Part shown: positions 1,440-19,642 of the stretch, in pieces
Numbering within the stretch: position 1 is the first letter of the stretch
Layout of the letters: each line of letters opens with the position of its first letter
IMG/VR virus record: IMGVR_UViG_3300022837_001356
Coordinates: 1 to 35,633 of that record
DNA length: 35,633 bases
Strand: one strand, 5' to 3'
Source: a virus
Notes under the pieces: generated by a model
The model's input: only the letters and a program-made list of their open reading frames with translations
Told to the model about the DNA's origin: nothing
The model's database searches: none
Made by a program: the position numbers and the translations under genes

Positions 1440-1455
1440 TTTAGTTTTATTATAA

Positions 1456-1983
1456 TTATATATAAATATTACCTTTTACACTAGGTACCATTTGTTTGAT
1501 TTGTTCTTTACTATATTTTTCAGAGATGGGGGTATTAAGTAAATAAAGATCACCTCCTACTGTTAAGCCTTGGGGGAGGGAGGTTATTAGAGTATTTCTT
1601 AAATTAAGACTACCTCCTACTGTTAAACCTTGAGGTAGGGTGGTTATTGGGGTATTTCTTAAATCAAGAGAACCTCCTACTGTTAAACCTTGAGGTAGGG
1701 TGGTTATTGGGGTATTACTTAAATAAAGATCATCTCCTACTGTTAAACCTTGAGGTAGGGAGGTTATTGGGGTATTATTTAAATAAAGAGTACGTCCTAC
1801 TGTTAAACCTTGAGGGAGGGTGGTTATTGGTGTACTTGACAAATCAAGATCACCTTTACCTCCATCCTTCATGTATTGTTGAATCTTCTTTTGAGTAGCA
1901 ATTAAATAGTTCTTAGAGCGTTCTTCTTTGGAACGTCTAGGGACTAGGATTTTATTTTCTAATATGTCTATTAATTTTATCAT
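1456..1983 (-). CDS. Leucine-rich-repeat-like protein, short paralogue
   Basis: This 175-residue protein has three parts. A conserved head, MIKLIDILENKILVPRRS, runs through an IATQKKIQQYMKDG helix to about residue 47. Five 20-residue repeats of the form TPITTLPQGLTVGGSLDLRN follow. The cap, SEKYSKEQIKQMVPSVKGN, ends in IYI. The LPxxL..L.L pattern is that of YopM/LPX-type bacterial leucine-rich repeats, which fold as a solenoid and usually bind other proteins. Head and cap are nearly identical to those of the upstream neighbour, so the two are tandem paralogues with different repeat numbers. Its ATG overlaps the neighbour's TGA (ATGA), so translation is probably coupled. The early ILE at residues 7-9 fits the (L/I)-x-E leader pattern, but weakly. 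Function unknown. Confidence 0.8.
   Translation of the reverse strand: MIKLIDILENKILVPRRSKEERSKNYLIATQKKIQQYMKDGGKGDLDLSSTPITTLPQGLTVGRTLYLNNTPITSLPQGLTVGDDLYLSNTPITTLPQGLTVGGSLDLRNTPITTLPQGLTVGGSLNLRNTLITSLPQGLTVGGDLYLLNTPISEKYSKEQIKQMVPSVKGNIYI
1457..1470 (-). promoter_or_regulatory. Promoter-like AATATTTATATATA in repeat gene end
   Basis: The motif covers the last I-Y-I-stop codons of the short repeat protein and lies about 17 bases before the ATG at 1439. This is the spacing seen at other genes, so it may serve the small acidic gene. Confidence 0.3.
1545..1850 (-). repeat. Five 60-bp tandem repeats encoding LRR-like units
   Basis: Five 60-bp in-frame units (20 codons each) each contain TGTTAAACCTTGAGGTAGGG on the plus strand or close variants, encoding LPQGLTVGG. 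Unit length equals that of the repeats in the neighbouring longer gene. Copies differ at scattered positions, so they are diverging. Confidence 0.85.
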
Positions 1984-2870: not shown

Positions 2871-3619
2871 TATGAAATTCCTATTATATTAGTATATTCT
2901 TTTATATCGTTAGATGAAATTTGTTTATCTAACCCATCATACCCATCAATTCCCCCATTATCTAATACCGCCAAAGCAACAACTACTAAATTCTTCCAAG
3001 TTTTTGGAAATTTATCTTGAAGTTGATTTATCATTTGCTGTGACTTTACTTTAACATAATAAAAAGTTACATTATTTGTATAGTAATAATCATTAAAGTG
3101 ATCGGGGGCTTTATATGTTGTACACCATGAAGAATCTTTTCCACCATCCCCACAGTCTCTAAATGCAAATTGGGATAATCCAAGTTTACGAGATGCTTCG
3201 TGGGTGTGGGGGGACATTATTAATAGGTCTGAATTCTCTAATACAGTATCGTAGTCGGATTCTAATTCTTTGGTGGATATGTTTTCTCCGGCGTTGTTTA
3301 TTTGGTCAACTTCATCTTGAAGGGCTTTAAAGGATTTAATTTGGTAAATATCTTTGGTTTTTGTTTTACCTTTTTCTAAGAGTGTATTGAACTCTTCAAT
3401 GGTGTTTCTTAAATCGTCTATATCTGTAATTTGTTTTTCTACCCATTGTTTCGCCATCCACCCCACATACTTACGTGTTGGGGAAGGGTCTATATCAGTT
3501 AATATTTTTAACTCCTCTTGGGTTAGTTTATCTGAATCAACATATTGTTTGGCCTGTCTTATGTTTTCTAATATTGAATGTTTGTTTTCAATTAATAGTT
3601 TTGAATAATTAAATTTCAT
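2870..3619 (-). CDS. Phage protein with WCT-motif domain
   Basis: This 249-residue protein starts MKFNYSKLLIENKHSILE, where LIE (residues 9-11) again fits the (L/I)-x-E leader pattern. Residues about 20-110 are helical and charged. The more distinctive half runs from about 130 onward: SPHTHEASRKLGLSQFAFRD, then a segment with SSWCTTYKAPDHFNDYYY and a strand NNVTFYYVKV. I recall this 'S-x-E-S/A-x-x-LG ... WCT ... Y ... FYYV' pattern from other phage proteins of unknown function. That resemblance is from memory, not a search. A late segment, NLVVVALAVLDNGGIDGYDG, is hydrophobic but too short for a confident membrane helix. The gene is coupled to the downstream repeat-protein gene through TAATG. 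Function unknown. Confidence 0.7.
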   Translation of the reverse strand: MKFNYSKLLIENKHSILENIRQAKQYVDSDKLTQEELKILTDIDPSPTRKYVGWMAKQWVEKQITDIDDLRNTIEEFNTLLEKGKTKTKDIYQIKSFKALQDEVDQINNAGENISTKELESDYDTVLENSDLLIMSPHTHEASRKLGLSQFAFRDCGDGGKDSSWCTTYKAPDHFNDYYYTNNVTFYYVKVKSQQMINQLQDKFPKTWKNLVVVALAVLDNGGIDGYDGLDKQISSNDIKEYTNIIGIS

Positions 3620-3658
3620 ATTGTTGTTTTTTATATAATATGTTGACTATTGAATAGG

Positions 3659-4372
3659 TTATGAATTCGTTGGGATCCAAAATGAAGCATTTCCATCTAA
3701 TGTTAAACCATATCCATTGACTAGTAGATGTGCTGCGGCTAATTCATCGGAACCACCAGATGTGAGTGTCCACTCACCTGAGTATGCTTCGTAGGGGTAT
3801 ATCTCTTCCATAACCCAAGCAGCTAAATTACCTACTGCGACTTGATATGTTATCCTCATACCCCACTTATCTGATAATTCGCCCGCTCCCCTTACAGGTG
3901 AGGAATGCATTATTACAGTGTAATCTCCATCAATTATAGGGTTACCAGGGAAAAGTTGTTGGTTATTACCACTTGTATTATAAAAACCCCCTATTGATGA
4001 AGTGAGAGAATCCCATGAGGGGTTACCATTGATGTCTCGGTATTCTAGTGCAAAAGTTTCAAAATTTACTACTCCTAATGATGCTAGTTGGTTTTCCCCT
4101 GCTGGTAGAGTAGATGATGAATTTATATCAAATGCAAACCCCTTACTAATATCAGCTATACCATCAATAAACACACCTGAGGCTTCTTCATGAACTGCAA
4201 CCCCATTAATGTTGGTTACTCCAGGGGTGTTGATTTTAATCAGTGTGCTCTTTTGATATTCTCCACTTTCTCCGGCCCCATTATCCCATGTTCCAAAATT
4301 TAAAATCCCTTCATAGGAACTGGAAAAGGGTAGTGAGTGTAATCCTCCTATCTGTAATGATAAATCTGGCAT
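3659..4372 (-). CDS. Beta-rich hypothetical, possibly virion surface protein
   Basis: This 237-residue protein is rich in G, S, N and T with frequent hydrophobic strand-like segments (LIKINTPGVTNINGVAVHEE, DYTVIMHSSPVRGAGE) and few charged helices. It ends in LTLDGNASFWIPTNS. The composition fits a tail-fibre or decoration-like beta protein, but I see no diagnostic motif. Unlike its neighbours it has no MDNFDL-type or other leader; it starts MPDLSLQIGG. It lies 6 bases after the Cys-rich gene and 39 bases before the next gene. Function unknown. Confidence 0.6.
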   Translation of the reverse strand: MPDLSLQIGGLHSLPFSSSYEGILNFGTWDNGAGESGEYQKSTLIKINTPGVTNINGVAVHEEASGVFIDGIADISKGFAFDINSSSTLPAGENQLASLGVVNFETFALEYRDINGNPSWDSLTSSIGGFYNTSGNNQQLFPGNPIIDGDYTVIMHSSPVRGAGELSDKWGMRITYQVAVGNLAAWVMEEIYPYEAYSGEWTLTSGGSDELAAAHLLVNGYGLTLDGNASFWIPTNS

Positions 4373-4378
4373 GTTTTA

Positions 4379-4759
4379 TTATAATTTAATAATGTTCATA
4401 TTTGGGTATAAGTGGGCACTTTTTGAACCTTTAATATACACCGTATTTTCTATGGGGAAATCTAAAGGAACTTTTTTTCCTTCAAATATACCGAAATATC
4501 CTAAATCTGTTTCCCTTAAAATCTTTAAATCTTTTTTATTTTCTACTTCTAAAATACCACGAGAGTACATATAACGAGCTTCAGCCCATAAGTTAAAATA
4601 TTTAGGTGAACCCACACGATGTAGTGTGTCTGTTAATGGTTTATTAGCGTATATGTAGCGCTGTATATCATTAGATAATATACCACGAGGGGCTTTATTT
4701 TCATTAAGTTTTAACGTGGGTTTTTCAGTTCCACAAGTATCACATCCACAGTTACACAT
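4379..4759 (-). CDS. Small protein with N-terminal cysteine cluster
   Basis: The 126-residue product opens with MCNCGCDTCGTEKPTLKLNE, placing four cysteines in nine residues (positions 2, 4, 6 and 9). These could bind a metal ion. The remainder includes LSNDIQRYIYANKPLTDTLH and a basic and aromatic middle (FNLWAEARYMYSRGILEVEN), with no domain I recognise. LNE at residues 18-20 fits the (L/I)-x-E pattern, so the Cys cluster might be a removable leader; that is speculative. The ATG follows the upstream stop by 7 bases, with AT-rich sequence between. Function unknown. Confidence 0.6.
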   Translation of the reverse strand: MCNCGCDTCGTEKPTLKLNENKAPRGILSNDIQRYIYANKPLTDTLHRVGSPKYFNLWAEARYMYSRGILEVENKKDLKILRETDLGYFGIFEGKKVPLDFPIENTVYIKGSKSAHLYPNMNIIKL

Positions 4760-4766
4760 ATTTATT

Positions 4767-5900
4767 TTATATTATATCGTTATAAGATAATTCTCTAACA
4801 TTAGATGTGATTTTAGCATCTTTAGAGGGTATTATTCTAAAATCTAACCCTTGACTTTTTCCTCTATGTTGAGCAACTGCAAATACTGGGTCTATATTTG
4901 CCTTTTCTAAATCTTCTAATGTGTTGTAAATATTAGAGACTTTTACATTAATTACCCCGTTTTCTAAAGAGTATTCTCCTTTTTCAGGTTTACCAACTAT
5001 TATTACTTGGGGGGTTTCTGGTCCAAAAACCCAGTTATTTATGTCATCTTTAGGAAAATCTGGGATTATAGCTTTTGAGATTCTATTTCCTGTAATAGGA
5101 TCATACATCAAATACTTACCAGGGACATCTGGATTTTGTTTTAACTCTAAATCAGTTAATTTACCATTAATGGCATCATTAATAAATTTTGTGATAAATT
5201 CTTTATATATAGATATAACTGACGCCCACCTAAAACCACTATCTTTTTTTAATGAAATGTTTGAATCTACTTTACTATTAGACATAAACTGGACATCTGA
5301 TTTAGCTCCTTTCCCAGCATCTGTTTTGGAAGAATCTCTAATATTTGTTATATTGTAAAAAGGAAGTTTTTTATCGGGGGATATGAGTACTACAGTTGCT
5401 TCACCTCCGTTCTCTTCAATTAAACTATTAATATTCTCTATAAAATCACCTTCACTTCCTTTACCATCACCTCCTGGGGGTTTGTTACTTACAACTATGC
5501 TAACTTTGCCGAATTCTTGGGTGTTAAAAACATACATATTAAATGTTCCGCTAGGGTTGGGGGGTTGATTTTTAGGGATAACTTCTATGTCTAACTTTTC
5601 ACCAAATGCTTCTTGAAATAAATCAATAAAAAATTGGATTTCATTTTTACCCTCAATACCCAATCTAGTTTTATCTGATTTTTCTACAAAGTTATACTTA
5701 CCCCCTAAGGTATCTATTATAAATCGTATTGCTTCTTTAGTACCATTGCGATTTTCTAATTCATTTAACCTAAATTTCTTACCCAATATATCACCCACCA
5801 AGGATTCCAATATCAAAACATCCTTCTCATTATTCATGTCAGGATATCCTTTTGGGAATTTATATGCTATTTTATTTAAATATTTAGTAAGGGTGCCCAT
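4767..5900 (-). CDS. Possible PD-(D/E)XK nuclease-like protein
   Basis: This 377-residue protein has no certain family assignment. In its middle, GKGAKSDVQFMS (about residues 197-208) is followed by DSNISLKKDSG. The 'K-S-D-x-x-x ... S-L-K-K' spacing resembles the D...(S/E)xK active-site core of restriction-like PD-(D/E)XK nucleases that use SLK as the second motif. A strand-rich region with VSIVVSNKPPGGDGKG precedes it. The C-terminal half has VPGKYLMYDPITGNRIS, then a domain with QVIIVGKPEKGEY. It may therefore be a DNA-cutting enzyme, but catalytic residues are only guessed. A candidate promoter motif (5919-5929) lies about 20 bases upstream, and the gene sits at the start of a small cluster reading leftward. 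Confidence 0.65.
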   Translation of the reverse strand: MGTLTKYLNKIAYKFPKGYPDMNNEKDVLILESLVGDILGKKFRLNELENRNGTKEAIRFIIDTLGGKYNFVEKSDKTRLGIEGKNEIQFFIDLFQEAFGEKLDIEVIPKNQPPNPSGTFNMYVFNTQEFGKVSIVVSNKPPGGDGKGSEGDFIENINSLIEENGGEATVVLISPDKKLPFYNITNIRDSSKTDAGKGAKSDVQFMSNSKVDSNISLKKDSGFRWASVISIYKEFITKFINDAINGKLTDLELKQNPDVPGKYLMYDPITGNRISKAIIPDFPKDDINNWVFGPETPQVIIVGKPEKGEYSLENGVINVKVSNIYNTLEDLEKANIDPVFAVAQHRGKSQGLDFRIIPSKDAKITSNVRELSYNDII

Positions 5901-5918
5901 ATTATTATTATTATTCTT

Positions 5919-5929
5919 GTATAAATATA
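5919..5929 (-). promoter_or_regulatory. Promoter-like TATATTTATAC
   Basis: TATATTTATAC on the coding strand is about 18 bases before the ATG at 5900, followed by an AATAATAAT-rich leader. It lies in the 68-base gap before the nuclease-like gene. Confidence 0.35.
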
Positions 5930-5968
5930 CTAAAAATCTTTAACGTATCCCCACATAGTGCCCTATAT

Positions 5969-6475
5969 TTACCAAGCTTTACAAGACCAATATCTTGCCA
6001 TTGTTTTAGGTCCGGGAGAATCACAATTAAATCGTGATCTAAATGCTTTTCTACGTTTTGGGTTAGATTTTCTAATACTCATAGTTGGACGTTTTGCAGA
6101 TGTACCACCATGTCCAAAATTTACTTTTTTTACTTTAATAGAACCATCAGCATTTTTCTTACCTGAGTTGACATATACTTTAAATTTTTTACTATCACCT
6201 CGTGTTGGTTTGTTTAATATAACTGTTTTACCTTGGTATTTTGCTTCTGTAATATTTTCATCAATGATTTCCATTTCCATTAATTCATTAATGTCCATAT
6301 CTTCTTCCATAGGTACACAATTATCAACGGTTTTACCACCTTTCTTTTTTGTGCCTACTAATTTATATCCTTTCCAACATGCTTTTCCATCTATTCCCTT
6401 AAGTTTTTCATCTATTTCACCTTCACTTAATAGTTTACCTTCAGCTAAGTATTTCCTTAAATCGAAATTATCCAT
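5969..6475 (-). CDS. Tagged protein with basic C-terminal RYWSCKAW domain
   Basis: The 168-residue protein starts MDNFDLRKYLAEGKLLSEGE, the clearest form of the leader shared with the genes at 9014-9430 and 16443-17435. It contains two (L/I)-x-E-G sites (LAE-G at 12/13, LSE-G at 18/19). Next comes CWKGYKLVGTKKKGGKTVDN (residues about 33-52), a short basic, glycine-rich patch, then an acidic stretch. The C-terminus is strongly basic: MSIRKSNPKRRKAFRSRFNC, ending in KTMARYWSCKAW. This Arg/Lys- and Cys-rich ending recurs in phage proteins, in my memory, and looks nucleic-acid binding. I infer a capsid-packaged DNA-associated protein. The gene ends 68 bases before the next start; 23 bases separate it from the gene upstream. 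Confidence 0.75.
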   Translation of the reverse strand: MDNFDLRKYLAEGKLLSEGEIDEKLKGIDGKACWKGYKLVGTKKKGGKTVDNCVPMEEDMDINELMEMEIIDENITEAKYQGKTVILNKPTRGDSKKFKVYVNSGKKNADGSIKVKKVNFGHGGTSAKRPTMSIRKSNPKRRKAFRSRFNCDSPGPKTMARYWSCKAW

Positions 6476-6498
6476 TTTTATTTAATTGTGATTTATTC

Positions 6499-6933
6499 TT
6501 AAATTTCTACGTCTGGTATATCATCTATTTCAACATCATCTCCTTCCCCGGTTTCAGCCGTATCCTCTGATTTTGGTCCATATCGTAATATACGAGATAT
6601 TGCTAACGTTGCTCTTTCCTCTTCAGGTAGGTTTAATAGATAATATTTTTTACCCTCTACTTGAGCTATCCAACTTCTCCTAGAATATATTAGATAGAAT
6701 TCTTGGTCGTTTTTTAAGTTGATTCTAAATGTGGTGGGTTTAGGAGAAACCCAATCTATGGAAGAGAGGAATGAATCAAAATCTGACGTTAACAGATCGA
6801 CTATAATCGATTTTAGTTCAGGGAATTTTGTAAGTTCATCGTATTCAACGGCCGCTATATCAGATTTCTGTTGGGATTTATATACAAGGGGCACAATTGA
6901 CTTAATTTTATCCCTTAGTTCTACCTTTGTCAT
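6499..6933 (-). CDS. Hypothetical protein with acidic tail
   Basis: This 144-residue protein has an N-terminal helical region (MTKVELRDKIKSIVPLVYKS) and a central alpha/beta segment (TTFRINLKNDQEFYLIYSRR, then WIAQVEGKKYYLLNLPEEER). It ends in an acidic tail of about 25 residues (EGDDVEIDDIPDVEI). I recognise no family. Its opening only loosely resembles the KSELKEMIKS-type leader. The ATG lies inside the last 26 bases of the upstream 626-residue gene, so the two are likely coupled in translation. The acidic tail resembles scaffold or chaperone-like phage proteins, but the function is unknown. Confidence 0.7.
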   Translation of the reverse strand: MTKVELRDKIKSIVPLVYKSQQKSDIAAVEYDELTKFPELKSIIVDLLTSDFDSFLSSIDWVSPKPTTFRINLKNDQEFYLIYSRRSWIAQVEGKKYYLLNLPEEERATLAISRILRYGPKSEDTAETGEGDDVEIDDIPDVEI

Positions 6934-8788
6934 TTTGCAATAGTTTTTCGTTATTTATCAGATCAATTATATCCTTAATTTTATCTCTTTCGGGGTGAGC
7001 TTCTAATCTATCTTCTTCTTTAGCTTTAGCCCATTCCTCTTCAGACATTCCTTCATTTGTATCTCTACTTACCATCAATCTTTTAGCTAATTTTTTAGCA
7101 ACTGATTCAAAGGTTGGTGAATTATGTTTGGGGATTGGATTTAGAGTATCAACTGCGATATCAATTTTAGGTTCATTAATTTCAAAGTCAAGATAGTGTT
7201 TTGCACCAACTATTGCTGTTTTAGCATTTGTTATTTTTGCTTGCCACCATGATGGAAAATCAACTTCCCCTTCACCTTCAAACCCATCAACCATGTTATA
7301 CAATTCCATAGCATATTTTCCAATACGATATAAATCTGCTTTTAACATATGTGGTTCATTGTCTTCGTGGCCTAAATCTAAGTCTTCGTTTAAATCATCT
7401 TGTTTAACCCAAAATGTATCTAATTTACCTAATATAGCTGAAGGTTCGTTACGACGAATATAAATTCTGTCGTCTTCACGTCTTACTACTTCATGGTCTT
7501 CACCATTATATTTTACAATTTCTGATTTGTTTTCGTTTAAACCATATTTTAAATTTGACTTAAAAATATCACTCATACCAGAACTTTGTTCTACAGCATT
7601 TTTAATTTCTTGTAATACTTGACCCACAGTCATTTTTCTACTAACCATATTTTCTATGGCTCTAGTAATCATTTGTCTGTCTCCGTCAATAGCACCTTCG
7701 TTTAAACCTTTAGATATTTCATCTTCATCCTCATTGTAATCTTCAACCACCATATTTCCAACTATTTTTTTAATTGCTGAAACTAATGTATCAATATAAT
7801 TTGGATCTTTTTTACTTCGGACACTAACTGAGTATGCTCCCTTTTGGGTTAAAATCAAAATAAATTGACCGTTTTTAATTCCAATATCAAAGTAGTTATG
7901 GGTAAATTGCATTGTTTTATTTAATTCCAACCCAACCTGAACTGTTAATTTTGGTAACGTTTGTGATGATTGTGATGTTTTTATCCCCAAGGGGATTGTA
8001 ACCTTATTACCTTCAGTAACTAATTCTTCATTTAAACCATCATAGTTTTGTTTTCTTAGTACTTGCGTAATAGCGTAGACAGCATCCTGTAATGAGTAGT
8101 CGTACATATCTGCTAATTTTCTTACAAACCCATTTACCAATCTATCTAATTCAGGGTTAACATTCTCATTCATATTATATCCAGTTTTAGAGGATAGTTT
8201 TAAACCTTTCTTTTCAGCATATTTTTGTGCTTCTAAAGGTGAGTCGAATATCATGTCAATTTGAGCTGAACCATTTGGTTTTTCTAACACGTATGAGGGT
8301 ATAGCTTTACTACCTGTTTTAGATATCATTACTTCATCTCCAACCTCACCCATATATTCCTCAATTGATTTTGTTTGTTTTTTATACTTAGATAGTAAAT
8401 TAGCTATTTTGTCATCTTTCCCAACCATTGTATTAATTTGACTAGGTTCTAATTTTCTACCATAGTATTTTTCTATTTGATTTTTGAGGTCTTTAAGTTG
8501 AGAGGGTTCGTTTACTTCTATTTTACGTTCCTCAAGATTTTCATTTTGGGTTTTATTTAAATCGGCTTTTTTAGGGTTCATTAGAGAGGATTTAATCATC
8601 TCTTTTAGTTTTTCGTTATTCATTGATTTTGTTTGTTTTTTAGCCTGATTTGTTGCTCTACCATACATCACAGCTTCAGCATCCTTACCATACTGTTTTA
8701 CTAAAGCACGTTTATTACCCTTCATATTCATAATGATATCTTCGCGTTTTGCTAATTCAGTTTTGGTAAGTTTGCGTTCGTTAAGCAT
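6908..8788 (-). CDS. Modular 626-aa internal-type protein with LNE joints
   Basis: The protein is a mosaic. A basic N-terminal part (MLNERKLTKTELAKREDIIM) contains YGKDAEAVMYGRATNQAKKQ, then a second leader-like stretch, MNNEKLKEMIKSSLMNPKK. A middle part holds a SPLEAQKYAEKKGLKLSS-type domain. A C-terminal module reads DLDLGHEDNEPHMLKADLYR ... YAMELYNMVDGFEGEGEVDF ... WWQAKITNAKTAIVGAKHYL, which I recall as a recurrent helical module of phage proteins. Segments are separated by repeated LNE motifs (GLNEELVTEG, GLNEGAIDG, GLNENKSE, DDLNEDLDL), matching the (L/I)-x-E cleavage rule at likely domain borders. I infer a virion-internal protein that may be cut into pieces. The module functions are unknown. 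A virion core or scaffold role is possible. Confidence 0.75.
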   Translation of the reverse strand: MLNERKLTKTELAKREDIIMNMKGNKRALVKQYGKDAEAVMYGRATNQAKKQTKSMNNEKLKEMIKSSLMNPKKADLNKTQNENLEERKIEVNEPSQLKDLKNQIEKYYGRKLEPSQINTMVGKDDKIANLLSKYKKQTKSIEEYMGEVGDEVMISKTGSKAIPSYVLEKPNGSAQIDMIFDSPLEAQKYAEKKGLKLSSKTGYNMNENVNPELDRLVNGFVRKLADMYDYSLQDAVYAITQVLRKQNYDGLNEELVTEGNKVTIPLGIKTSQSSQTLPKLTVQVGLELNKTMQFTHNYFDIGIKNGQFILILTQKGAYSVSVRSKKDPNYIDTLVSAIKKIVGNMVVEDYNEDEDEISKGLNEGAIDGDRQMITRAIENMVSRKMTVGQVLQEIKNAVEQSSGMSDIFKSNLKYGLNENKSEIVKYNGEDHEVVRREDDRIYIRRNEPSAILGKLDTFWVKQDDLNEDLDLGHEDNEPHMLKADLYRIGKYAMELYNMVDGFEGEGEVDFPSWWQAKITNAKTAIVGAKHYLDFEINEPKIDIAVDTLNPIPKHNSPTFESVAKKLAKRLMVSRDTNEGMSEEEWAKAKEEDRLEAHPERDKIKDIIDLINNEKLLQNDKGRTKG

Positions 8789-8797
8789 GTGTATTTT

Positions 8798-8953
8798 TTA
8801 TTTATGTTCTCTTTTGAAATCAGCAGATAAATTTTTAATTTTGTTAGCGGCAGATCTACATCTTCCTTTAGCAGCAGATGATGTTTTGTCAATTTCTGCT
8901 TCAATCAATAGTACTTGTGCTTTGATTCCTTCTAGTAATTCTTTAGTTTCCAT
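8798..8953 (-). CDS. Small basic histone-H1/Hc1-like protein
   Basis: This short frame reads METKELLEGIKAQVLLIEAE, then IDKTSSAAKGRCRSAANKIK, and ends NLSADFKREHK, for 51 residues. A helical N-terminal half is followed by a lysine/arginine-rich second half with alternating A/S and K/R. The pattern 'KxAAxGRxRxxxxxIKxLSxxFKxE' resembles the small histone-H1-like (Hc1) DNA-binding proteins of Bacteroidota, which run 'GNKAAGxRARKxSLELxKxxKxFR'. The role would be DNA compaction or binding. LLE-G at residues 6-9 also fits the (L/I)-x-E-G rule, perhaps by chance. The gene sits between a modular internal-type protein and another tagged protein. It is preceded by an AT-rich leader containing TTTATAAAAAATAAAA. 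Confidence 0.6.
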   Translation of the reverse strand: METKELLEGIKAQVLLIEAEIDKTSSAAKGRCRSAANKIKNLSADFKREHK

Positions 8954-9013
8954 AATTTTTATTTTTTATAAATTTGATTGTTTGTTTACCTTTATTTTAT
9001 TTTTTGATTCCTG

Positions 9014-9430
9014 CTACTTTTTAGAAATACCCATCATCCTTAGATATTCTTTTCTATTTTTATCTTGATCAATAGTATTTCCGGGGTTGATGAAATCATC
9101 TGACTCATCATCACCAAACTCTTTAAGTTTTTTATCTCTTAATTTGTTAACCCCCTCAATGATGCTATCTATAAATTTGTTAATATCTTCTTTATTTTCA
9201 AATTCACTATGCATCATATCATCCTCAATCTGATCAATAAGATATTTAGAATTTTGATCTACAATGTAATCATCGGAGTTTTCTTTAATTTTGTTTTTAG
9301 CTTCGTAAGCAGCTTTAATACCCTCTAGTGTTGGTAATGCTTCGCCTTGTTTTCTTGTGTCGTATCCAGGTGAATTTTCTTTTAGTAGCGTTCTTGCACT
9401 AACGAATTTTTTTAAATCGAAATTATCCAT
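9014..9430 (-). CDS. Tagged helical protein, MDNFDL leader
   Basis: The 138-residue protein starts MDNFDLKKFVSARTLLKENS; its first six residues match the genes at 5969-6475 and 16443-17435, and LKE at residues 16-18 is the probable cleavage site. The body is helical and charged (KQGEALPTLEGIKAAYEAKN; DNKFIDSIIEGVNKLRDKKL). It ends DQDKNRKEYLRMMGISKK, a C-terminal motif like the FKKLAGIIK end of the neighbour at 9457-10173. No enzyme motif is visible. I infer a small packaged internal protein. The gap to the upstream gene is 26 bases, most of it a TTTAT pentamer repeat (35 bases in total, running into the upstream gene's end). Confidence 0.75.
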   Translation of the reverse strand: MDNFDLKKFVSARTLLKENSPGYDTRKQGEALPTLEGIKAAYEAKNKIKENSDDYIVDQNSKYLIDQIEDDMMHSEFENKEDINKFIDSIIEGVNKLRDKKLKEFGDDESDDFINPGNTIDQDKNRKEYLRMMGISKK

Positions 9431-9465
9431 TTTATTTTATTTTATTTTATTTTATTTTATTTTAT
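9431..9465 (-). repeat. TTTAT pentamer repeat before a tagged gene
   Basis: Seven perfect TTTAT units on the plus strand (AAAAT direction on the coding strand) fill most of the gap between two genes, extending into the stop region of the upstream gene (AAATAA). It is the immediate leader of the ATG at 9430. It may have arisen by slippage and may tune translation by keeping the leader unstructured. Confidence 0.8.
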
Positions 9466-10173
9466 GATCCCTGCTAGTTTTTTAAACCTAATAGACTCAG
9501 ATAAATCTTCTTCCTCATTAACACCACTTTCATCTACTCTTGCAATATGTGCTCTAGTAAAATATGTAATTGTATTACCAATTTGATCTGTTAGTTTTTC
9601 ATCTCCAAGTTTAGTTGCTTCTTCTTGAGCTTTCATTAATAAACCTTGAATTACTTCTTCGCTTTCGCTTTCGCCTGGCATAGATGTTTCAATTTCAATA
9701 TCTGTTTCTTTGTCATCGATTTCTTCATCTTTTTCAATGTCAACATCTATATCTTCATCTTCTACATCTGCGTCTTTAGCTTCATTAAAACCATGAAAAT
9801 CATGTTCTGGGTAACTTAAATTATCCTCAATATATTGAGATTTAACCTGCCATTCTTTCTTTGAACGTCCATCACCCCCCCAAGTTTCATCAGTAAATGG
9901 GATGTTTTTACTAAGCAATAATCTTTCTAAAAAGGGCCAATTGGCTCTAGCTGTACCATCCTTTAATGTCCATTTAGCTACAAAACGTAAGTCACCACTT
10001 GGATCAGGATCATTTGCACCAGCACGTATTGGTTGGATGTTGAAGTTCTTACTTTCTAACATATCAATATCTTCTTGGGATAAAAGACCAACATCTTCGC
10101 CTTCTTTAATTGATTTTTTAGCTTCATCTAACATAGCAGACTTGATCATTTCTTTTAATTCTGATTTTTTCAT
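9457..10173 (-). CDS. Tagged acidic protein, KSELKEMIKS leader
   Basis: The 238-residue protein opens MKKSELKEMIKSAMLDEAKK, a second leader type shared with residues near 83 of the 626-aa protein and with the small protein at 33534-33884. LDE-A (15-18) and IKE-G (22-25) both fit the prohead-protease rule. A folded part around residues 40-125 contains AKWTLKDGTARANWPFLERL and a GGDGRSKKEW segment. A very acidic linker follows (KDADVEDEDIDVDIEKDEEI), then a helical tail ending ESIRFKKLAGIIK. The FKKLAGIIK ending resembles the YLRMMGISKK end of the next gene. An AT-rich promoter-like motif lies about 25 bases upstream. I infer a virion-internal protein; its activity is unknown. Confidence 0.75.
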   Translation of the reverse strand: MKKSELKEMIKSAMLDEAKKSIKEGEDVGLLSQEDIDMLESKNFNIQPIRAGANDPDPSGDLRFVAKWTLKDGTARANWPFLERLLLSKNIPFTDETWGGDGRSKKEWQVKSQYIEDNLSYPEHDFHGFNEAKDADVEDEDIDVDIEKDEEIDDKETDIEIETSMPGESESEEVIQGLLMKAQEEATKLGDEKLTDQIGNTITYFTRAHIARVDESGVNEEEDLSESIRFKKLAGIIK

Positions 10174-10196
10174 TGGTTTTAACGTTTTGTGTAAAT

Positions 10197-10210
10197 TTTA
10201 TTATAAATAT
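10197..10210 (-). promoter_or_regulatory. Promoter-like ATATTTATAATAAA
   Basis: ATATTTATAATAAA on the coding strand is about 23 bases before the ATG at 10173. It sits in the 51-base gap following the membrane-protein gene. Confidence 0.38.
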
Positions 10211-10224
10211 GCGTAAGTTGTTGT

Positions 10225-11250
10225 TTATACCAGAAATGCTTTAATAGCTGGATATGTATTCATCATCGCTTCATCACCTTTAGCTATACCTTTTAATGAG
10301 GCAACACCTGCTTTGAACCAACTGGCGTTGGATAAACTACTTATAGCTTCAGTACCATAACCAACAGCCATGCTCATGATTATAACGGCATAAATTGCTT
10401 GGGTTGTGTTTTCTAATTTAGTTGGGTCTTTTATAAAGAATTTTAAAACACGTTTAATTGGTGCTTGAAATGCTTTTTCGTTATCGTGAGTCCATTTTTG
10501 GATTTTTTGGGCGAAATCTTCACCTTTTTCCCATTTGAACTTCTTCATCAACTTAGCTGTAACTTTAGAAATGAAACCAATAAGTGCATTACCTGTTAAA
10601 ACAGCAACAATTATTGATGTTACAACGGCTTCGTCTAATTGTTCTTTATCGCCTTGTTTTGATTTTAACTCTTTACCTAAAGTAGCTGCAATACCATTGG
10701 CTGCCGCTATTAATTCAGCATCGAATGCTTTCTCTTCAGTTCCATTGTCTTCAAATTCATTTAATGATTCTCCAACTAATTTAACATCGCTTTCATGGTA
10801 GGATTTTTTATTCACTACTACGAATGAACCCTTTTTATCTGTTACTTCACCACTACCCCCACCATAGGATTTATCAATTTTTCCTTCAACTTTTAATTTT
10901 GATGGATTAGTTTTGTTATTAGATTCAACTAACTTATGTAATTCCCTAATTAGAGGTCCAGCTATTGAAAATAATTTGGGACTTTTTTTAGAATTATCAC
11001 CTTTAAGGTTTTTAATTAAACCTTGAATTGAGTCTATAACGTCTAAGATTTCGGAATTTGAGACTTTTGACCCATTTTCAGTTATTTTATGTTTTTGGAT
11101 TAAATGCCTTAAATCAATATTAAATTCTGTATCTGGGTCTATTGTGATATCATCATTATCATGATCTTGTTTTTTCCCCTCATCTATTCGAGGTGTATTT
11201 TTTACTAATGGTTTAGAAAAGAATTCTTGTATTTTTTTAATATCTTTCAT
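10225..11250 (-). CDS. Tagged membrane protein with three LxE sites
   Basis: This 341-residue protein starts MKDIKKIQEFFSKPLVKNTP, followed by RIDE-G (E24/G25), an ideal (L/I)-x-E-G site. The first half is hydrophilic with a KVEGKIDKSYGGGSGEVTDK stretch. Around residue 206, QLDE-A gives another site and is followed at once by a hydrophobic helix (VVTSIIVAVLTGNALIGFIS). A second helix (AIYAVIIMSMAVGYG) lies near residues 283-300, and SLNE lies near residue 164. Cleavage at QLDE would free a membrane-active C-terminal half of about 135 residues with two helices. This is inference. It might help DNA pass the inner membrane during injection, or be a host-modifying protein. The gene is coupled to the upstream one by TAATG. 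Confidence 0.7.
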   Translation of the reverse strand: MKDIKKIQEFFSKPLVKNTPRIDEGKKQDHDNDDITIDPDTEFNIDLRHLIQKHKITENGSKVSNSEILDVIDSIQGLIKNLKGDNSKKSPKLFSIAGPLIRELHKLVESNNKTNPSKLKVEGKIDKSYGGGSGEVTDKKGSFVVVNKKSYHESDVKLVGESLNEFEDNGTEEKAFDAELIAAANGIAATLGKELKSKQGDKEQLDEAVVTSIIVAVLTGNALIGFISKVTAKLMKKFKWEKGEDFAQKIQKWTHDNEKAFQAPIKRVLKFFIKDPTKLENTTQAIYAVIIMSMAVGYGTEAISSLSNASWFKAGVASLKGIAKGDEAMMNTYPAIKAFLV

Positions 11251-11759
11251 TATTTATTAAATTTTATGCGTGGGTAGTAAAGTCTTTCCCCTGGATCTTC
11301 ATCAAAGTCACTTTGGGATTGGTCTCTATCTACAGTATAACCTTTATCTTCAATAAATTTGATCATACTTTCGAATCCAATATCATCAATATCTCCCCTT
11401 GTGTGGATGGTTATATGACCTGTATTATAAGGACTATAAAAATTAGAAGATGCTCTTACGCCAAATTTATTTGAGAATTCACTTTCCATATCAGAAATAC
11501 CTGCTTCTTCATTTAAGGACTCATTTATGCCTAACTCAGCATGTAATACTTCCATAAATGGGTTAATGTTATGGGAACCATAATTTTCTTTAAGGACAAA
11601 AGCTACGGACTGGGCAAAGTCTTTATATGACATTGAATCATCAATAGAAATTATAGCATTATTAATAAGTTGAGCTAATTCATTAGCTTGAGTTATATTT
11701 TCTCCACCTTCTATGAGGTATTGTTTTCTAAACCACCCAGTAACATTGAAATCTTCCAT
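11250..11759 (-). CDS. Tagged hypothetical protein
   Basis: The 169-residue protein starts MEDFNVTGWFRKQYLIEGGE. It is a diverged form of the MDNFDLRKYLAEG leader: 'DF' at residues 3-4, 'RKQY' aligned with 'RKY', and LIE-G at 15-18 as the cleavage site. After it comes a helical region (INNAIISIDDSMSYKDFAQS) and an alpha/beta C-terminal part with SPYNTGHITIHTRGDIDDIG and IKFIEDKGYTVDRDQS. No catalytic motif is recognised. SLNEEAG near residue 81 offers a second LNE joint between the two halves. The gene is preceded by an AT-rich promoter-like motif and coupled (TAATG) to the membrane protein gene downstream. Function unknown. Confidence 0.7.
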   Translation of the reverse strand: MEDFNVTGWFRKQYLIEGGENITQANELAQLINNAIISIDDSMSYKDFAQSVAFVLKENYGSHNINPFMEVLHAELGINESLNEEAGISDMESEFSNKFGVRASSNFYSPYNTGHITIHTRGDIDDIGFESMIKFIEDKGYTVDRDQSQSDFDEDPGERLYYPRIKFNK

Positions 11760-11777
11760 TTAATTTTATTTAGTTTT

Positions 11778-11790
11778 ATTTATAAATATA
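11778..11790 (-). promoter_or_regulatory. Promoter-like TATATTTATAAAT
   Basis: The motif lies about 18 bases before the ATG at 11759 (tagged hypothetical), in the 41-base gap after the zinc-ribbon gene. It is part of the shared ATATTTATAA set. Confidence 0.38.
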
Positions 11791-11800
11791 TAAGAATGTG

Positions 11801-12373
11801 TTATTTCTTTAACTTCTCTAAATGTTCTATTTTTTTCTCTAAACTTTCCAATACTCTCTTCTTATCAAGACCGCCATCCCACTTTTCAACATCACCTTGC
11901 TCGGAAATAAATGAATTGTTTGATTTGGTTAATTCTTCTTCAACGTGTAGTTTGAGGTTGGATATGAACCCTTCTATTTCGGAGTTTATGATATTTTTCT
12001 CATATTCTTCGAATAAACCCGTTTTACGTAGTTTAAATTCAAAGTCAAGAACACAATTAAAGCATTTTTTATGAATATTATAATAATCTTTATCATATGT
12101 AGCATTCATTAAATCTTTACAAGTTGGGCAAAATAAAGGCATAACGTGAGTTTGTTTAGCCTTATCTAATTTGGTGATGTTTTGTTTAATACCATCTTTA
12201 ATAGTCCATTTACGACCCTCACCTTCCCAAATATCACCTTCCCCATGTAATTCTTCTGATTTTTTGTAGCCTACACCTTCACCAACTTTATTACCATATT
12301 TACCTTGTACTAGGTTACGGAGACGTTGGACGTCTCTTTTTTGAAAATCTTTCTTTAAAACGTTATCAGACAT
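11801..12373 (-). CDS. Zinc-binding CxxC-CxxC protein
   Basis: The 190-residue protein has two cysteine pairs, FCPTC near residue 81 and KKCFNC near residue 103, with a CxxC-x(about 18)-CxxC spacing typical of a zinc ribbon. The flanks are IKQNITKLDKAKQTHVMPL before and a long acidic helical tail after. The N-terminal region is basic (KDFQKRDVQRLRNLVQGKYG). It begins MSDNVLKKDFQ and has no LxE leader, so it looks like a cytoplasmic or structural accessory rather than a packaged protein. Its ATG lies 8 bases inside the end of the upstream coiled-coil gene. The pair may act together, perhaps as head or neck assembly factors; this is a guess. Confidence 0.65.
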   Translation of the reverse strand: MSDNVLKKDFQKRDVQRLRNLVQGKYGNKVGEGVGYKKSEELHGEGDIWEGEGRKWTIKDGIKQNITKLDKAKQTHVMPLFCPTCKDLMNATYDKDYYNIHKKCFNCVLDFEFKLRKTGLFEEYEKNIINSEIEGFISNLKLHVEEELTKSNNSFISEQGDVEKWDGGLDKKRVLESLEKKIEHLEKLKK

Positions 12374-12782
12374 TTCTATATTTTTTTAATAAATTTCTTA
12401 TTTCTTCTATTTTATCTTTCCCAAAGAAAGTCTCAATTGTATCTACCATATCGGCTAAATCCTCTAATTTTGCTGTTTGAGATAAATTATTTTGACGTTG
12501 TTGGATTTCACCATCTAATGTTTCTTTTTGAGTTTTCAAACTTAAAAATGATTCACTGTATTCTGTTACCTTAATACTTAAAAGTTGTTGTAAATCAGCT
12601 ATAAGGGATTGTATATCCTCGGGCATTAATCTACCACTACTATATAAATCTTTAACTACATTTGTTAACCCTTTAATATCTACGGGTGTATATGGGGTTC
12701 CCTCATTTTTTACTGAATTTTCACTTCTGGCTCTAGGTGAACCACCTTTATACCCCCCATTTATTGAATTTAATTCACTCAT
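12366..12782 (-). CDS. Coiled-coil hypothetical protein
   Basis: The 138-residue protein has a flexible N-terminus (MSELNSINGGYKGGSPRARS) followed by long helical stretches. One of them (LADLQQLLSIKVTEYSESFL, then LKTQKETLDGEIQQRQNNLS) looks like a coiled coil. No catalytic motif is present. The ATG overlaps the end of the 1223-aa polyprotein gene by 4 bases, and its own end overlaps the zinc-ribbon gene by 8 bases, so three genes form a tightly coupled set. A structural or chaperone role is plausible; the function is unknown. Confidence 0.65.
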   Translation of the reverse strand: MSELNSINGGYKGGSPRARSENSVKNEGTPYTPVDIKGLTNVVKDLYSSGRLMPEDIQSLIADLQQLLSIKVTEYSESFLSLKTQKETLDGEIQQRQNNLSQTAKLEDLADMVDTIETFFGKDKIEEIRNLLKKYRNV

Positions 12783-15700
12783 AATCCTAGTTCTTTTAAT
12801 TGTCTGATTGTATCAGATGCTGTTATGTGTAATATACCAATCCCGTTTTGTGAGCGCCATTGATCTATATTTGAGGGTCTGTCATCAATTAAGATTCTAT
12901 TTTTTTGGGCATAGTTTTGTTTATCTTTAGCTTGTGCTAATATTAATTTGGTACCCGGTAAGTTATTCTTAACCCATAAGCGTTTACCTAAACGTGAAGT
13001 TGGAGATGAAGATGGGGATGATAGTAGAATTGGATTGTATTTTTTAATATAATCCCAGTATTCTTTACCATCAGACATCCACGGCATCTTGACCCAATAC
13101 CCCACACCTGAGGAATTTATTAAGTCCCAAAAACCCTTTCTACTGAAATTTTTTTGATATTCTGAGGGGAGTACACCATTTGATAGTTCTATAAAGGAAG
13201 CATCAAAATCTGTTAAAACACCATCCATATCACTATAAATTTCGTAGTCCATATCTTTATCTTGTTCAAATAATGGTAAAGATAATGACTTTCCTCTGCT
13301 TCTCCAAATGTCTAATATGATGTTTTTTTCTTCTTGTGTAATTGTTTCTTGGTTAACAAATATATCTAAATAATCATCTATAACATCTTTAAAGGGAAGT
13401 TTTGATTTTTTAGCTTTAAAATACAAGCCTTGAAGCATTGCATCTACTTCTTTTTCTAATTTGAAATATTGTGATTTAGGTAGCATTTCAGCATCAATTA
13501 AATCTCTTACTAATGTATCATCCTCCATGTACTTACCGGAGTGTTGGTTGTAGCCCTCTTGAGTCAAATGTTCAAGTTCATGTCTAACAACATCTTTAAT
13601 ATCAAATGATATTTTCTGCCAATCTGGGTTTTTGGGTATTTTAAATTTAACTGACAGTAATGGAGTTATTTCATCCCCTTCATCATCAAACCCAGCATTT
13701 GCTCCCCCATCTACTTTATATTCATCATCTGTAATTTCTACATAACCCTCAAAATCGAAGAAAAAATCTTTAGATGGAATATCATGTTCGTCTTCGGGGT
13801 GGTCTACTCTAAACTTAAATGAGCCTTCTTTATCTCCTCTACCATAGATGTCCTTAAATGCTTTAAAGGTAATTGATGATAATTTATTTGTTAATGTATC
13901 GTATCGACCTTCGTTTATAACTTCTTCAGCTATTTCTCTAGCAAATTGATTTAAACCAAAGGGGTCTTTACCTAATTTTTTGTCAAAGCCTTCATCTAAT
14001 GGGGTATTATTATACCCACATTTATGACAAATGTATAAATCATCCCCACCATCTTTTATGTCCCAAGACCAATCACAATTATCACATTCGATTTTATCGC
14101 CTACGATTGCTTCTTCTAACCCTGTTGTTAATCCACGAGCATAAGCATTTAAACCAAATGGATCTTTATTTAAAGTTGAGGTGTGTTCATTTTCTCTAAC
14201 TAGTTTATGGTAAAATTCACTTCCAACCTTTATAATGTGTTCTTGTTCCTCTTTAGTTAATAAAGAACCCTTAGTTATAAGTTTATCAACTTGAGATTTG
14301 TTAGGGTTATAGAATTCATAGTTGTAGAAATTATTTTCGGGTTCCCATATTTCACTTTCGTTTGGGAAATGGGTTGCAAACTTCTCATCTCGAGGTGTTA
14401 ACTTGACAACTTTAATGTTTGGGTTAATACCTTCTATAAACTTTTCCCATACAGTCTGTGCTTCCTGTTCTGTATTACCGTTACGGTCAGATCTTAGGGG
14501 TTTAGGGTATACATAAGCCATCCCCAACTCATACATTAGAGGACCATATCCCTTCTTAGCTGCTACCCCAGTAACTTCGTTTTGGTAAACGTTGATATGA
14601 CCTAAGGATTCTTTGGTTACAGTATCATATAAATCTAAAGCATTATCTTCTCGAGATAATACTACAACCATACCATCAGTCACAGATTGCATTACCTCTT
14701 TTAAATTACCTACATCATCTAAGCCGGTAACACACTTACATGCATAGTTGTATTTTTCGTTTAATGATTTTCCTCTAGCAACTACCCCTAATACTTTTCT
14801 GGCATTATCATCTAAATCGGATGGTTTAATAATTTTAGCCGGTATTGTTTTGGCTTTTGATCTTAGTGCTTTTTGTGCTCTATGGTTACCATCTAAAATC
14901 CACAATATACTTCCATCTTCATCCGCCATAATTAAGATAGGGTATTGGTTAGAGACTTCAACTTGCGCTATTCTTTCTATTTCGGTGGGGTTATCATCCC
15001 AATTTAAAACTATTTTAGATAATTTTTCTGTAGGGTAATTTTTTTGAGGGATGTTTTTAGTTAAATCTAACACATTCTGTAAGGTTAAAGTACCGCCTTC
15101 GAAATCAATCCATTCAGTATCTGCTCCTATTTCATTTAAGTTATCAGTGAATTTTTTACCATCTGGGGTTTGTTCTTTACTTGGGATGATTTTATATTTA
15201 AAAGTTTTTGCAAAATCATACATAACAGTCCCAACACCTTTTCTCCACCAATTGGGTTTTACTGAAGTATCTGATGACGATAATATTTTTGGATTATTTG
15301 TTTCGTCTGATGTAAAGTATGCTGCTCCTATTTTATTATCATCTTTATCAAACGCCGTTATATTTAAACTACCATAAGAAAGCATGAATTTATCAACTTT
15401 TAAAGTAATAGTTTCTCCTGTTTTTAATGTATATTTTTTTGTTTGATCTAATGATTTTTTAAAGATATTTTCATCTAAACTATCAGTCCAATTCCTAAAT
15501 GTCATTGTACCTTTTAAATTAGCTTCTGCTTCAATATCGTTTAAATGATCGTCTTCCATTGTATTTGTACCACCTATATCGCCTAACCTATTTTCTAAGT
15601 TTTGGATATGGTGTATCATTTCATGTGCAAATGAGCGTACTATATCCTTAGGATGGCGCCCTTCAGTGTATAATGTGATGGTGTTGTTGTTCTGGTTATA

Positions 15701-16450
15701 ATACGCGGTTTTACCGAGAAAATCCCGGGCATTGTCACTATCCCCATCTACAAATTTAACTTTAGGTAAAGGTTCAATGTTGTAACCCTTATTTAACATA
15801 TGTTGGGTTAGTTGCATTATTTTACCCTTAATATCTATCTCTTTACCATATGTAGCATTTTCGTTTAAATTTGAAGCTAATTCTTCATAGGTTACATTTA
15901 AACCCAATGGATCTTTATTTTCATCTAATGGTGGTTTTACAATGTCATATACTTCTTCTTTTTCACTATCACTTAGTTCTGATGGTAGGTATTTGATAAA
16001 GTCATTATATGATACTTGGGATGCTTTTCTAGCATTAGTACCACTAACCCCCGTGTTAGGGTTTGTAATAAGCTTAATTTTCATATTTGGGTATTTTTCT
16101 TCTATACCCTTACTACGTCTGCTTAATTCAGCAGCATCATCTTCATCTCCTTCACGAGAACCTATTACAAAATATATTTCATCTTGGGGGTTGTTTTTCC
16201 CCAAACGAATAATGTCACCAATTGGACCTTTAGAGGGCTGAATTTGCACCTTCATTGGAAGGTAAGTTTGAAAAATCTCCCAAATCAATATAGATTGTGC
16301 CTGATTAATATTATCACGCTCTTTCTCCCCAACATATATAATAAATTCTTCAATTTCGGGGAATTTATCTAGTGTTTTTTTTACTACTTCAAAATGACCT
16401 ACTGTAGGTGGTTTAAAACCACCACCATATACCGCTAATAATCTACCCAT
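12779..16450 (-). CDS. 1223-aa multi-enzyme polyprotein (nucleotidyltransferase to HAD)
   Basis: Domains in order: a nucleotidyltransferase fold with GGGFKPPTVGH at residues 9-19 (GxFxPxxxGH type) and GVSGTNARK near 137, like NMN adenylyltransferases. Next comes an HExxH metalloprotease-like motif (H276-E277-M-I-H280), then an acetyltransferase-like WWRKGVGTVMYDFAK near 401. A ParB/sulfiredoxin-like DGNHR follows at 520-524, with another GNAT-like segment near 640. A zinc ribbon has Cys 789, 792, 808 and 811. A second HExxH lies at H957-E-L-E-H961. A C-terminal HAD phosphatase-like domain (DMDGVLTDFD at 1074; LIDDRPSN near 1188) resembles 5'-deoxynucleotidase. KDP(F/L)GLN recurs at 179, 762 and 828, and LxE sites (LDEN, LNEN, SLNE, LEEA, LDEG, INEG) mark joints. 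I infer a packaged, cleaved polyprotein; the enzyme activities are unproven. Confidence 0.75.
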   Translation of the reverse strand: MGRLLAVYGGGFKPPTVGHFEVVKKTLDKFPEIEEFIIYVGEKERDNINQAQSILIWEIFQTYLPMKVQIQPSKGPIGDIIRLGKNNPQDEIYFVIGSREGDEDDAAELSRRSKGIEEKYPNMKIKLITNPNTGVSGTNARKASQVSYNDFIKYLPSELSDSEKEEVYDIVKPPLDENKDPLGLNVTYEELASNLNENATYGKEIDIKGKIMQLTQHMLNKGYNIEPLPKVKFVDGDSDNARDFLGKTAYYNQNNNTITLYTEGRHPKDIVRSFAHEMIHHIQNLENRLGDIGGTNTMEDDHLNDIEAEANLKGTMTFRNWTDSLDENIFKKSLDQTKKYTLKTGETITLKVDKFMLSYGSLNITAFDKDDNKIGAAYFTSDETNNPKILSSSDTSVKPNWWRKGVGTVMYDFAKTFKYKIIPSKEQTPDGKKFTDNLNEIGADTEWIDFEGGTLTLQNVLDLTKNIPQKNYPTEKLSKIVLNWDDNPTEIERIAQVEVSNQYPILIMADEDGSILWILDGNHRAQKALRSKAKTIPAKIIKPSDLDDNARKVLGVVARGKSLNEKYNYACKCVTGLDDVGNLKEVMQSVTDGMVVVLSREDNALDLYDTVTKESLGHINVYQNEVTGVAAKKGYGPLMYELGMAYVYPKPLRSDRNGNTEQEAQTVWEKFIEGINPNIKVVKLTPRDEKFATHFPNESEIWEPENNFYNYEFYNPNKSQVDKLITKGSLLTKEEQEHIIKVGSEFYHKLVRENEHTSTLNKDPFGLNAYARGLTTGLEEAIVGDKIECDNCDWSWDIKDGGDDLYICHKCGYNNTPLDEGFDKKLGKDPFGLNQFAREIAEEVINEGRYDTLTNKLSSITFKAFKDIYGRGDKEGSFKFRVDHPEDEHDIPSKDFFFDFEGYVEITDDEYKVDGGANAGFDDEGDEITPLLSVKFKIPKNPDWQKISFDIKDVVRHELEHLTQEGYNQHSGKYMEDDTLVRDLIDAEMLPKSQYFKLEKEVDAMLQGLYFKAKKSKLPFKDVIDDYLDIFVNQETITQEEKNIILDIWRSRGKSLSLPLFEQDKDMDYEIYSDMDGVLTDFDASFIELSNGVLPSEYQKNFSRKGFWDLINSSGVGYWVKMPWMSDGKEYWDYIKKYNPILLSSPSSSPTSRLGKRLWVKNNLPGTKLILAQAKDKQNYAQKNRILIDDRPSNIDQWRSQNGIGILHITASDTIRQLKELGL

Positions 16451-19195: not shown

Positions 19196-19642
19196 CTATT
19201 CCAAGTCACGAGTGAAGAACTTACCGAGAATGTTGTCATTGAAAAATTCTTCGGGTTTTTCTAAGACTTGGTGGATCATTTGGTACTTTATTTCAAAGTA
19301 TGTAAGTTGTTTCTTTGAATTACAACAATGTAGAATTTCACGTTTGAAATTTTCTATGGGTTCATTTTTAATTAAATCCTTTAATGGTTTATTTGAACTC
19401 CAATATGATTGCCAATCCGATTCTTTTTGAACTATTTTAAATTTGGATGGTCTGCCTTTCCCACCTTCAAGTAATTTTAACTCTTTTTTACCTAACTTCT
19501 GCTTACGTGTAAATTCTAAGAATTTTTTACCTATGTAAGATTTATTTGTAGGTAGGTGAGTAATGATATAGATGAAACCAAACGTTTGATCTGGGAAATC
19601 GGATATTGACTCTATTTCTGTTTTTTGGTATTTCCAATTCAC
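19196..19642 (-). CDS. GIY-YIG endonuclease, GTG start
   Basis: The 148-residue protein has FGFIYIITHLPTNKSYIGKK near residues 21-40, the paired 'IY' and 'YIG' strands of GIY-YIG nucleases. Downstream are EFTRKQKLGKKELKLLE, SDWQSYWSSNKPLKDLIKN and a C-terminal helix with FEIKYQMIHQVLE (the conserved E/Q region). The likely activity is site-specific cutting of DNA, as in phage Seg-type mobile endonucleases. The start is GTG, overlapping the TAG of the upstream structural gene by one base (TAGTG), so translation appears coupled. It lies at the border between the structural genes and the primase/exonuclease block. A mobile-element role is inferred; a functional processing nuclease cannot be excluded. 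Confidence 0.75.
   Translation of the reverse strand: MNWKYQKTEIESISDFPDQTFGFIYIITHLPTNKSYIGKKFLEFTRKQKLGKKELKLLEGGKGRPSKFKIVQKESDWQSYWSSNKPLKDLIKNEPIENFKREILHCCNSKKQLTYFEIKYQMIHQVLEKPEEFFNDNILGKFFTRDLE

Follow-up and report, generated by a model that had tools for sequence, protein, structure and literature searches.

A modular multi-enzyme protein of a T4-like marine phage as a probable head-protease-processed polyprotein of virion cargo

Why would a single phage gene encode a series of unrelated enzymes, and why do these enzymes meet at variants of one short motif? The question is raised by P0001, a single open reading frame (ORF) of 1223 codons that runs on the minus strand from position 16450 to position 12779 of a 35,633-nucleotide virus fragment (IMG/VR record IMGVR_UViG_3300022837_001356; this whole 35.6 kb stretch is hereafter the window). 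The explanation that we favour is that P0001 is a polyprotein of virion cargo that is processed by the head protease of a marine T4-like phage, which, taken as a whole, we consider probable. The initial annotation, made from the sequence alone, had placed a 1223-aa protein at the same coordinates (the strand being minus) and had drawn much the same picture; the division of an enzyme chain at head-protease-type sites gained support from the computational tests described below (the blocks shuffle, LxE is the top motif at homology breakpoints, the joints avoid predicted folds, and the capsid proteins share the motif), whereas an acetyltransferase (GNAT) identity of two blocks and an internal echo of a leader were not borne out.

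Composition of the chain and placement of LxE motifs

P0001 joins at least two biochemically unrelated domains in one polypeptide (nucleotidyltransferase, HExxH, ParB-like and nucleotidase). All blocks lie on the minus strand and are given here from the N- to the C-terminus; in the joint sequences, a slash follows the E of the motif. Residues 1-177 (15920-16450), ending in PPLDE/N, are modelled by AF2 with a pLDDT of about 92 across residues 1-171, and the best PDB match of the model has a Z of 17.9 and an rmsd of 2.4 for 152 residues; the TxGH and SGTxAR motifs are intact in P0001 and nearly invariant among relatives. Judging from the model, this block is a complete NMNAT/PPAT-type nucleotidyltransferase, the substrate of which could be NMN, pantetheine phosphate or another nucleotide. 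A low-confidence spacer with KDPLGLN (residues 178-197, 15860-15919, ending in NLNE/N) leads to the first zincin-like block (residues 198-327, 15470-15859, NATY...HEMIHH...E, ending in SLDE/N), which directly follows an LxE and contains a conserved H-E-H with a downstream Glu, the catalytic residues being nearly invariant among relatives. The second zincin-like block (residues 848-1062, 13265-13909, GRYD...HELEHL...E, ending in LFE/Q) likewise starts after an LxE, and both HExxH blocks are well modelled by AF2.

The region between the zincin-like blocks is more heterogeneous. Residues 328-440 (15131-15469, ending in NLNE/I) form a variable block with no family match and are replaced by a different block in the relative L004. 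The ParB-like block that follows (residues 441-565, 14756-15130, with DGNHR, ending in SLNE/K) matches phrog_17560 (1.4e-7) and, weakly, ParB (0.0045), and has counterparts in L004 and L035. Another variable block with no family match, to which a block of L038 is related, and a KDPFGLN linker ending in GLEE/A make up residues 566-780 (14111-14755); the pLDDT is below 50 for residues 754-784. Next come a zinc ribbon (CxxC...CxxC; residues 781-820, 13991-14110, ending in PLDE/G), for which relatives yield weak zinc-ribbon Pfam matches, and a conserved linker of low pLDDT, KDPFGLNQFAREIAEEVINE, followed by G (residues 821-847, 13910-13990). The chain closes with a block of the HAD fold (residues 1063-1223, 12782-13264) that matches phrog_2643 (6.5e-20) and PDB entries by both sequence (E 2e-5) and structure (Z 15.2), retains the DxDG and DD motifs, and is a separate gene in many relatives; by sequence and model, it is a complete 5'(3')-deoxyribonucleotidase, with the activity predicted.

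The motifs from which the initial annotation had read these domains are all in place, namely GGGFKPPTVGH, HEMIHH (276), DGNHR (520), CDNC...CHKC (789/808), HELEHL (957) and DMDGV (1074), and its nucleotidyltransferase and phosphatase-like assignments both correspond to complete domains; the ParB-like assignment agrees with the matches above and with the distant stand-alone relative in L035. The proposed acetyltransferase identity found no support: residues 328-440 and 566-754 have no GNAT or other match in Pfam, PHROGs or PDB sequences, and their AF2 models are of low confidence.

With 16 (L/I)xE motifs against 15.0 +/- 3.4 in shuffled sequences, an excess of LxE by count is rejected, so the number by itself proves nothing. 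The placement of the motifs is more informative. Inter-block sites end at residues 177, 197, 327, 440, 565, 780, 820, 842, 847 and 1062, in line with the initial annotation, which had placed such sites between blocks and had named sites inside folded cores as the outcome that would speak against it. When the poorly modelled middle of P0001 is excluded, 7 of the 11 LxE sites fall within linkers that account for 12% of the confidently modelled length (p = 7e-5), and the joint sites avoid the confident folds. At joints, the E is followed by G, N or A; within the nucleotidyltransferase fold, by F, I or K in most cases. Thus, as far as the models go, LxE placement in P0001 is non-random and concentrated in predicted low-confidence linkers.

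Shuffling of blocks among relatives

Relatives of P0001 have the nucleotidyltransferase, zincin and nucleotidase blocks in common; between these, modules have been exchanged, duplicated or lost. About a dozen loci encode the nucleotidase as a gene of its own, in others it is fused to the chain, and L078 distributes nucleotidyltransferase, zincins and nucleotidase over three genes; the ParB-like block has a distant stand-alone gene in L035. The initial annotation had proposed a comparison of homologues on this point, and since the blocks do occur as separate genes, they are separable. L004 has a ParB-like block with 94% identity to that of P0001, preceded by a different block, and the switch point lies at LNE. 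The chain opens with a polymerase-beta-like nucleotidyltransferase in L070, L082, L048 and L078, copies of zincin 2 stand in tandem in L011, and the chain of L007 (L007:3071-6829) includes complete Fe/Mn superoxide dismutase (PF02777, 4.5e-29) and plastocyanin (6.8e-14) blocks. Scans of viral contigs with the two family-less blocks and the tail of the L011 chain returned almost nothing new. A short ORF, L051:7930-8658, retains no more of zincin 1 than its final portion, ahead of the nucleotidase, and looks like the remnant of a deleted longer chain. In several loci (L031/L047:6535, L027:6232, L039/L040) the called ORF start truncates the nucleotidyltransferase portion, which may reflect a frameshift, a split gene or an alternative start.

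We ranked 244 XxY motifs by their enrichment at homology breakpoints among 64 non-redundant relatives. LxE is the most enriched of them (3.5-fold, rank 1 of 244), with VxE third and IxE fifth; the control motif [LI]xD is depleted (0.7-fold), and [LI]xK is likewise not enriched. The rank carries more weight here than any p-value because breakpoints share ancestry. In this first set, [LIVM]xE immediately precedes zincin 1 in 39 of 39 relatives, in 19 different upstream contexts, and zincin 2 in 43 of 43, in 15 contexts. Because these patterns had been found by looking, 74 further loci were gathered with a distant query; zincin 2 starts directly after [LIVM]xE in all 54 cases among them, and zincin 1 in 24 of 44 under a rule that restricts the residue after E, which is a lower bound because many of the misses read LNE/IYAEP or IEE/MYAEP. 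Taken together, the sequence comparisons make it almost certain that P0001 represents a modular chain shuffled at LxE joints.

A chain of this kind could also be an intact multi-enzyme fusion that acts in NAD or nucleotide metabolism of the infected cell and is never packaged, with LxE serving as a favoured linker or helix cap. A nucleotidyltransferase combined with a nucleotidase makes sense for nucleotide metabolism during infection. However, a slot that also accommodates superoxide dismutase, plastocyanin and duplicated metallopeptidases does not correspond to one pathway, and a preference for linkers or helix caps does not sit well with breakpoints at which [LI]xD and [LI]xK are not enriched. 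We consider this explanation improbable, the more so given the leaders and virion proteins described next.

Head protease, leaders and packaging

Cleavage after L/I-x-E is established for the T4 protease gp21 (PMC9026906). A gp21-type protease (Peptidase_S77, PF03420) is found above the cut-off in the records of 8 relatives, including the cultured Flavobacterium phage immuto. The capsid propeptides of the relatives contain LLE/G near residue 33 and ILE/N near residue 48 in 8 of 8 cases, a comparison that concerns the relatives' capsid proteins, the window's own capsid gene lying outside the fragment; the T4 gp23 record has LLE/G and IFE/N, matching these sites. The chain joints LNE/N, LNE/G, INE/G, LDE/G and LEE/A conform to the same motif as the propeptide sites. 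On the basis of sequence, the joints of the chain are very likely to be prohead-protease sites.

Cutting at several LxE sites is also known for core proteins of T4 (PMC9026906), so that P0001 might instead belong to the prohead core or scaffold and share the fate of T4 gp22, gp67 and gp68, which are fragmented and for the most part removed, with the enzymes as minor passengers. However, immuto and relatives possess a separate LxE-rich scaffold gene between the protease and capsid genes, and in the chain, the joint LxE sites avoid folds and the catalytic residues are conserved; a scaffold role is therefore very unlikely in our estimation.

In most relatives, the nucleotidyltransferase is preceded by a variable leader, some 15 aa long and terminating in LxE, comparable to the leader of T4 IPIII (MKTYQEFIAE/A), and the split nucleotidase genes mostly have an LxE leader of their own. 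Such leaders are concentrated in the gene block to which the chain belongs: an LxE within residues 6-22 is found in 14 of 21 genes of the block in immuto vs 9 of 59 elsewhere (p = 2e-5), and in 11 of 18 vs 2 of 13 genes in the window (p = 0.013), with the group borders chosen from gene content and the immuto set omitting head genes, which also carry such sites. Related enzymes are known from virions. An NMNAT was detected by mass spectrometry in virions of cyanophage S-SCSM1 (PMC9602691), and its leader reads MKSFLQFLKE/A; virions of S-CREM2 contain a cytidylyltransferase and a kinase (PMC10665884). Packaging of the chain in the virion appears likely. The position of the P0001 gene in a block of leader-bearing genes and the virion association of a related, leader-bearing NMNAT in a cyanophage both argue against the never-packaged fusion considered above, on whose side the missing leader of P0001 itself has to be counted.

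Under the favoured explanation, P0001 would be produced late, as a single chain whose enzymes fold independently: an NMNAT/PPAT-type nucleotidyltransferase, two zincin-like metallopeptidase blocks, a ParB-like block, a zinc ribbon, a 5'(3')-deoxyribonucleotidase and two family-less blocks. The chain would be taken into the prohead, where the T4 gp21-type protease would cut the joints behind (L/I/V/M)-x-E, usually with G, N or A as the next residue. The mature enzymes, now separate, would be held in the head until they pass into the host together with the DNA, where NAD and nucleotide pools and host proteins would be their targets. Thus, while the modular chain, the shuffling at LxE joints and the capsid motif and gp21 homologue of the relatives are observed, we infer the packaging, cleavage, injection and activities of the chain. 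We further entertain, at somewhat less than an even chance, the idea that marine T4-like phages maintain an exchangeable cassette slot: there, prohead-protease sites on either side would be enough to turn any folded enzyme into virion cargo, with no need for its own targeting signal. The resulting polyprotein, coupled to head maturation, would deliver several matched effectors (NAD, nucleotide, redox, peptidase) in fixed proportion.

Several observations weigh against processing and delivery of this kind. P0001 has no N-terminal leader: it begins MGRLLAVYGGG, without an in-frame upstream start, and about ten close relatives are leaderless as well, as are three of the split nucleotidases (L007, L008 and L042). 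A leader hidden behind an upstream start was considered and discarded, the upstream frame being that of the overlapping kinase gene. The initial annotation had pointed to the repeat KDP(L/F)GLN at residues 179, 762 and 828, which is indeed present, as an echo of the leader pattern; in a position-specific scoring matrix test, however, KDPFGLN showed no resemblance to the leader family of the neighbouring genes and is not an internal copy of the DNFDLKKYLAEG leader. Loading of the whole set by one targeting event, as had been proposed, is uncertain because P0001 has no N-terminal leader. The window fragment contains no gp21-type protease gene. Conservation is weaker at the joint leading into the nucleotidase (LFE, IFE or VFE, and no LxE in L027, L033 and L039), and the LxE residues could be retained as part of the folded start of each block. 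The similarity of the S-SCSM1 virion NMNAT to the P0001 nucleotidyltransferase is distant, local and weak. To our knowledge, there is no virion proteomics or N-terminal sequencing for the P0001 clade, and the open-access papers searched (subscription papers were not covered) contain no immuto virion proteome.

Relation to known systems and gene neighbourhood

The closest precedents are polyvalent proteins and the internal proteins of T4. Like polyvalent proteins, which are predicted to be injected (PMC5512222), P0001 combines several unrelated enzymatic domains, zincin-like and ParB-like blocks among them; the authors of that concept likened these proteins to RNA-virus polyproteins and proposed embedded zincin or assemblin-like peptidases as the cutters (PMC5512222). 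P0001 could accordingly be a polyvalent protein that is packaged and injected as one long chain, with any processing by its own zincins, in the virion or in the host. Two HExxH blocks among unrelated enzymes fit this class and its proposed self-processing (PMC5512222), and the relative L004 has a sub-threshold ART-PolyVal match. None of the curated polyvalent-protein zincin families matched P0001, and Peptidase_M91 reached 0.0063 in the relative L082. Unlike in polyvalent proteins, however, the motif at the joints of P0001 is that of a distinct, T4-type prohead protease, as in the capsid propeptides, and not an unrelated one, and the same enzymes also occur as leader-bearing single genes, with zincin-free split-off single-enzyme genes mostly still having LxE leaders. 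We regard this reading, an injected single chain that is processed, if at all, by its own zincins, as unlikely. The words gp21, NMN and superoxide are absent from the text of Iyer et al. 2017 (PMC5512222).

With T4 IPI-III and Alt, internal head proteins that bear capsid targeting sequences (PMC9026906, PMC5694885), the P0001 family shares the (L/I)-x-E motif, the T4-type protease and, in most relatives, short LxE leaders. Unlike these single proteins, which are encoded one per gene and trimmed at their ends, the P0001 family has up to eight or so blocks per gene and internal sites, and P0001 is leaderless. The very large antirestriction proteins DarB and DdrB of P1 are packaged in the head, DarB with an N-terminal packaging signal (PMC9024508), and DdrB, a combination of ParB-like and zincin domains, is processed (PMC5512222), but a chain of complete enzymes shuffled at prohead-protease sites is not described there. 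The NMNAT of S-SCSM1 and the cytidylyltransferase of S-CREM2, detected by mass spectrometry in virions of these T4-like cyanophages (PMC9602691, PMC10665884), belong to the same nucleotidyltransferase superfamily as the P0001 block but are not fused to the other enzymes of the chain. Pelagibacter phage HTVC008M and Methylophilales phage Melnitz have a block consisting of a nucleotidyltransferase, a P-loop kinase and a 5'(3')-deoxyribonucleotidase, most of them with LxE-type leaders; unlike in P0001, these are separate genes, and the Melnitz nucleotidyltransferase protein fuses modules that in the window are separate genes (4379-4759 and 5969-6475, minus strand). By analogy, the putative mode of action of P0001 is like a cross between polyvalent proteins and the single-enzyme, gp21-trimmed internal proteins of T4. 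The open-access papers searched, subscription papers not being covered, contain no report of an effector polyprotein cut by a prohead protease.

In the window, P0001 is flanked by replication genes (primase, exonuclease) on one side and by a long run of genes on the same strand on the other; the baseplate and tail genes are located farther out, past the replication genes. The gene upstream of P0001 (16443-17435, minus strand), which overlaps its start by 8 bases, encodes the leader MDNFDLVKYMVEGRLLKE followed by a zeta-toxin-like P-loop kinase (PF06414, 1.2e-5), to which kinases of HTVC008M and Melnitz are related. Many genes of the downstream run (1110-12373, minus strand) have N-terminal leaders ending in LxE (for example, 5969-6475, 9014-9430, 9457-10173 and 11250-11759). 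This run includes a second long protein (6908-8788, minus strand) with several LxE-flanked segments; partly common to immuto gene 192 (L092:3606-6131), it is a candidate for a further polyprotein of this type. The end of immuto 192 corresponds to the window gene 6499-6933, which means that a block fused in immuto stands alone in the window. The neighbouring paralogues 1456-1983 and 1980-2870 (minus strand) have the leader MIKLIDILENKIL and many leucine-rich-like repeats (PITSLPQGLKVGGNLHL), and a SegE-like GIY-YIG endonuclease (19196-19642, minus strand; PF19835, 2.4e-28) adjoins the primase gene.

A cultured member of the clade exists, Flavobacterium phage immuto, so that direct testing is possible. 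If the favoured explanation is correct, head maturation in T4-like phages would not only shape the capsid but also release a set of enzymes from a polyprotein, a natural design for packing several proteins in equal amounts. The LxE joints, together with the leaders, would then provide a sequence signature for injected effectors among the unannotated genes of marine phages, and block swapping would explain how the cargo repertoires of these phages evolve.

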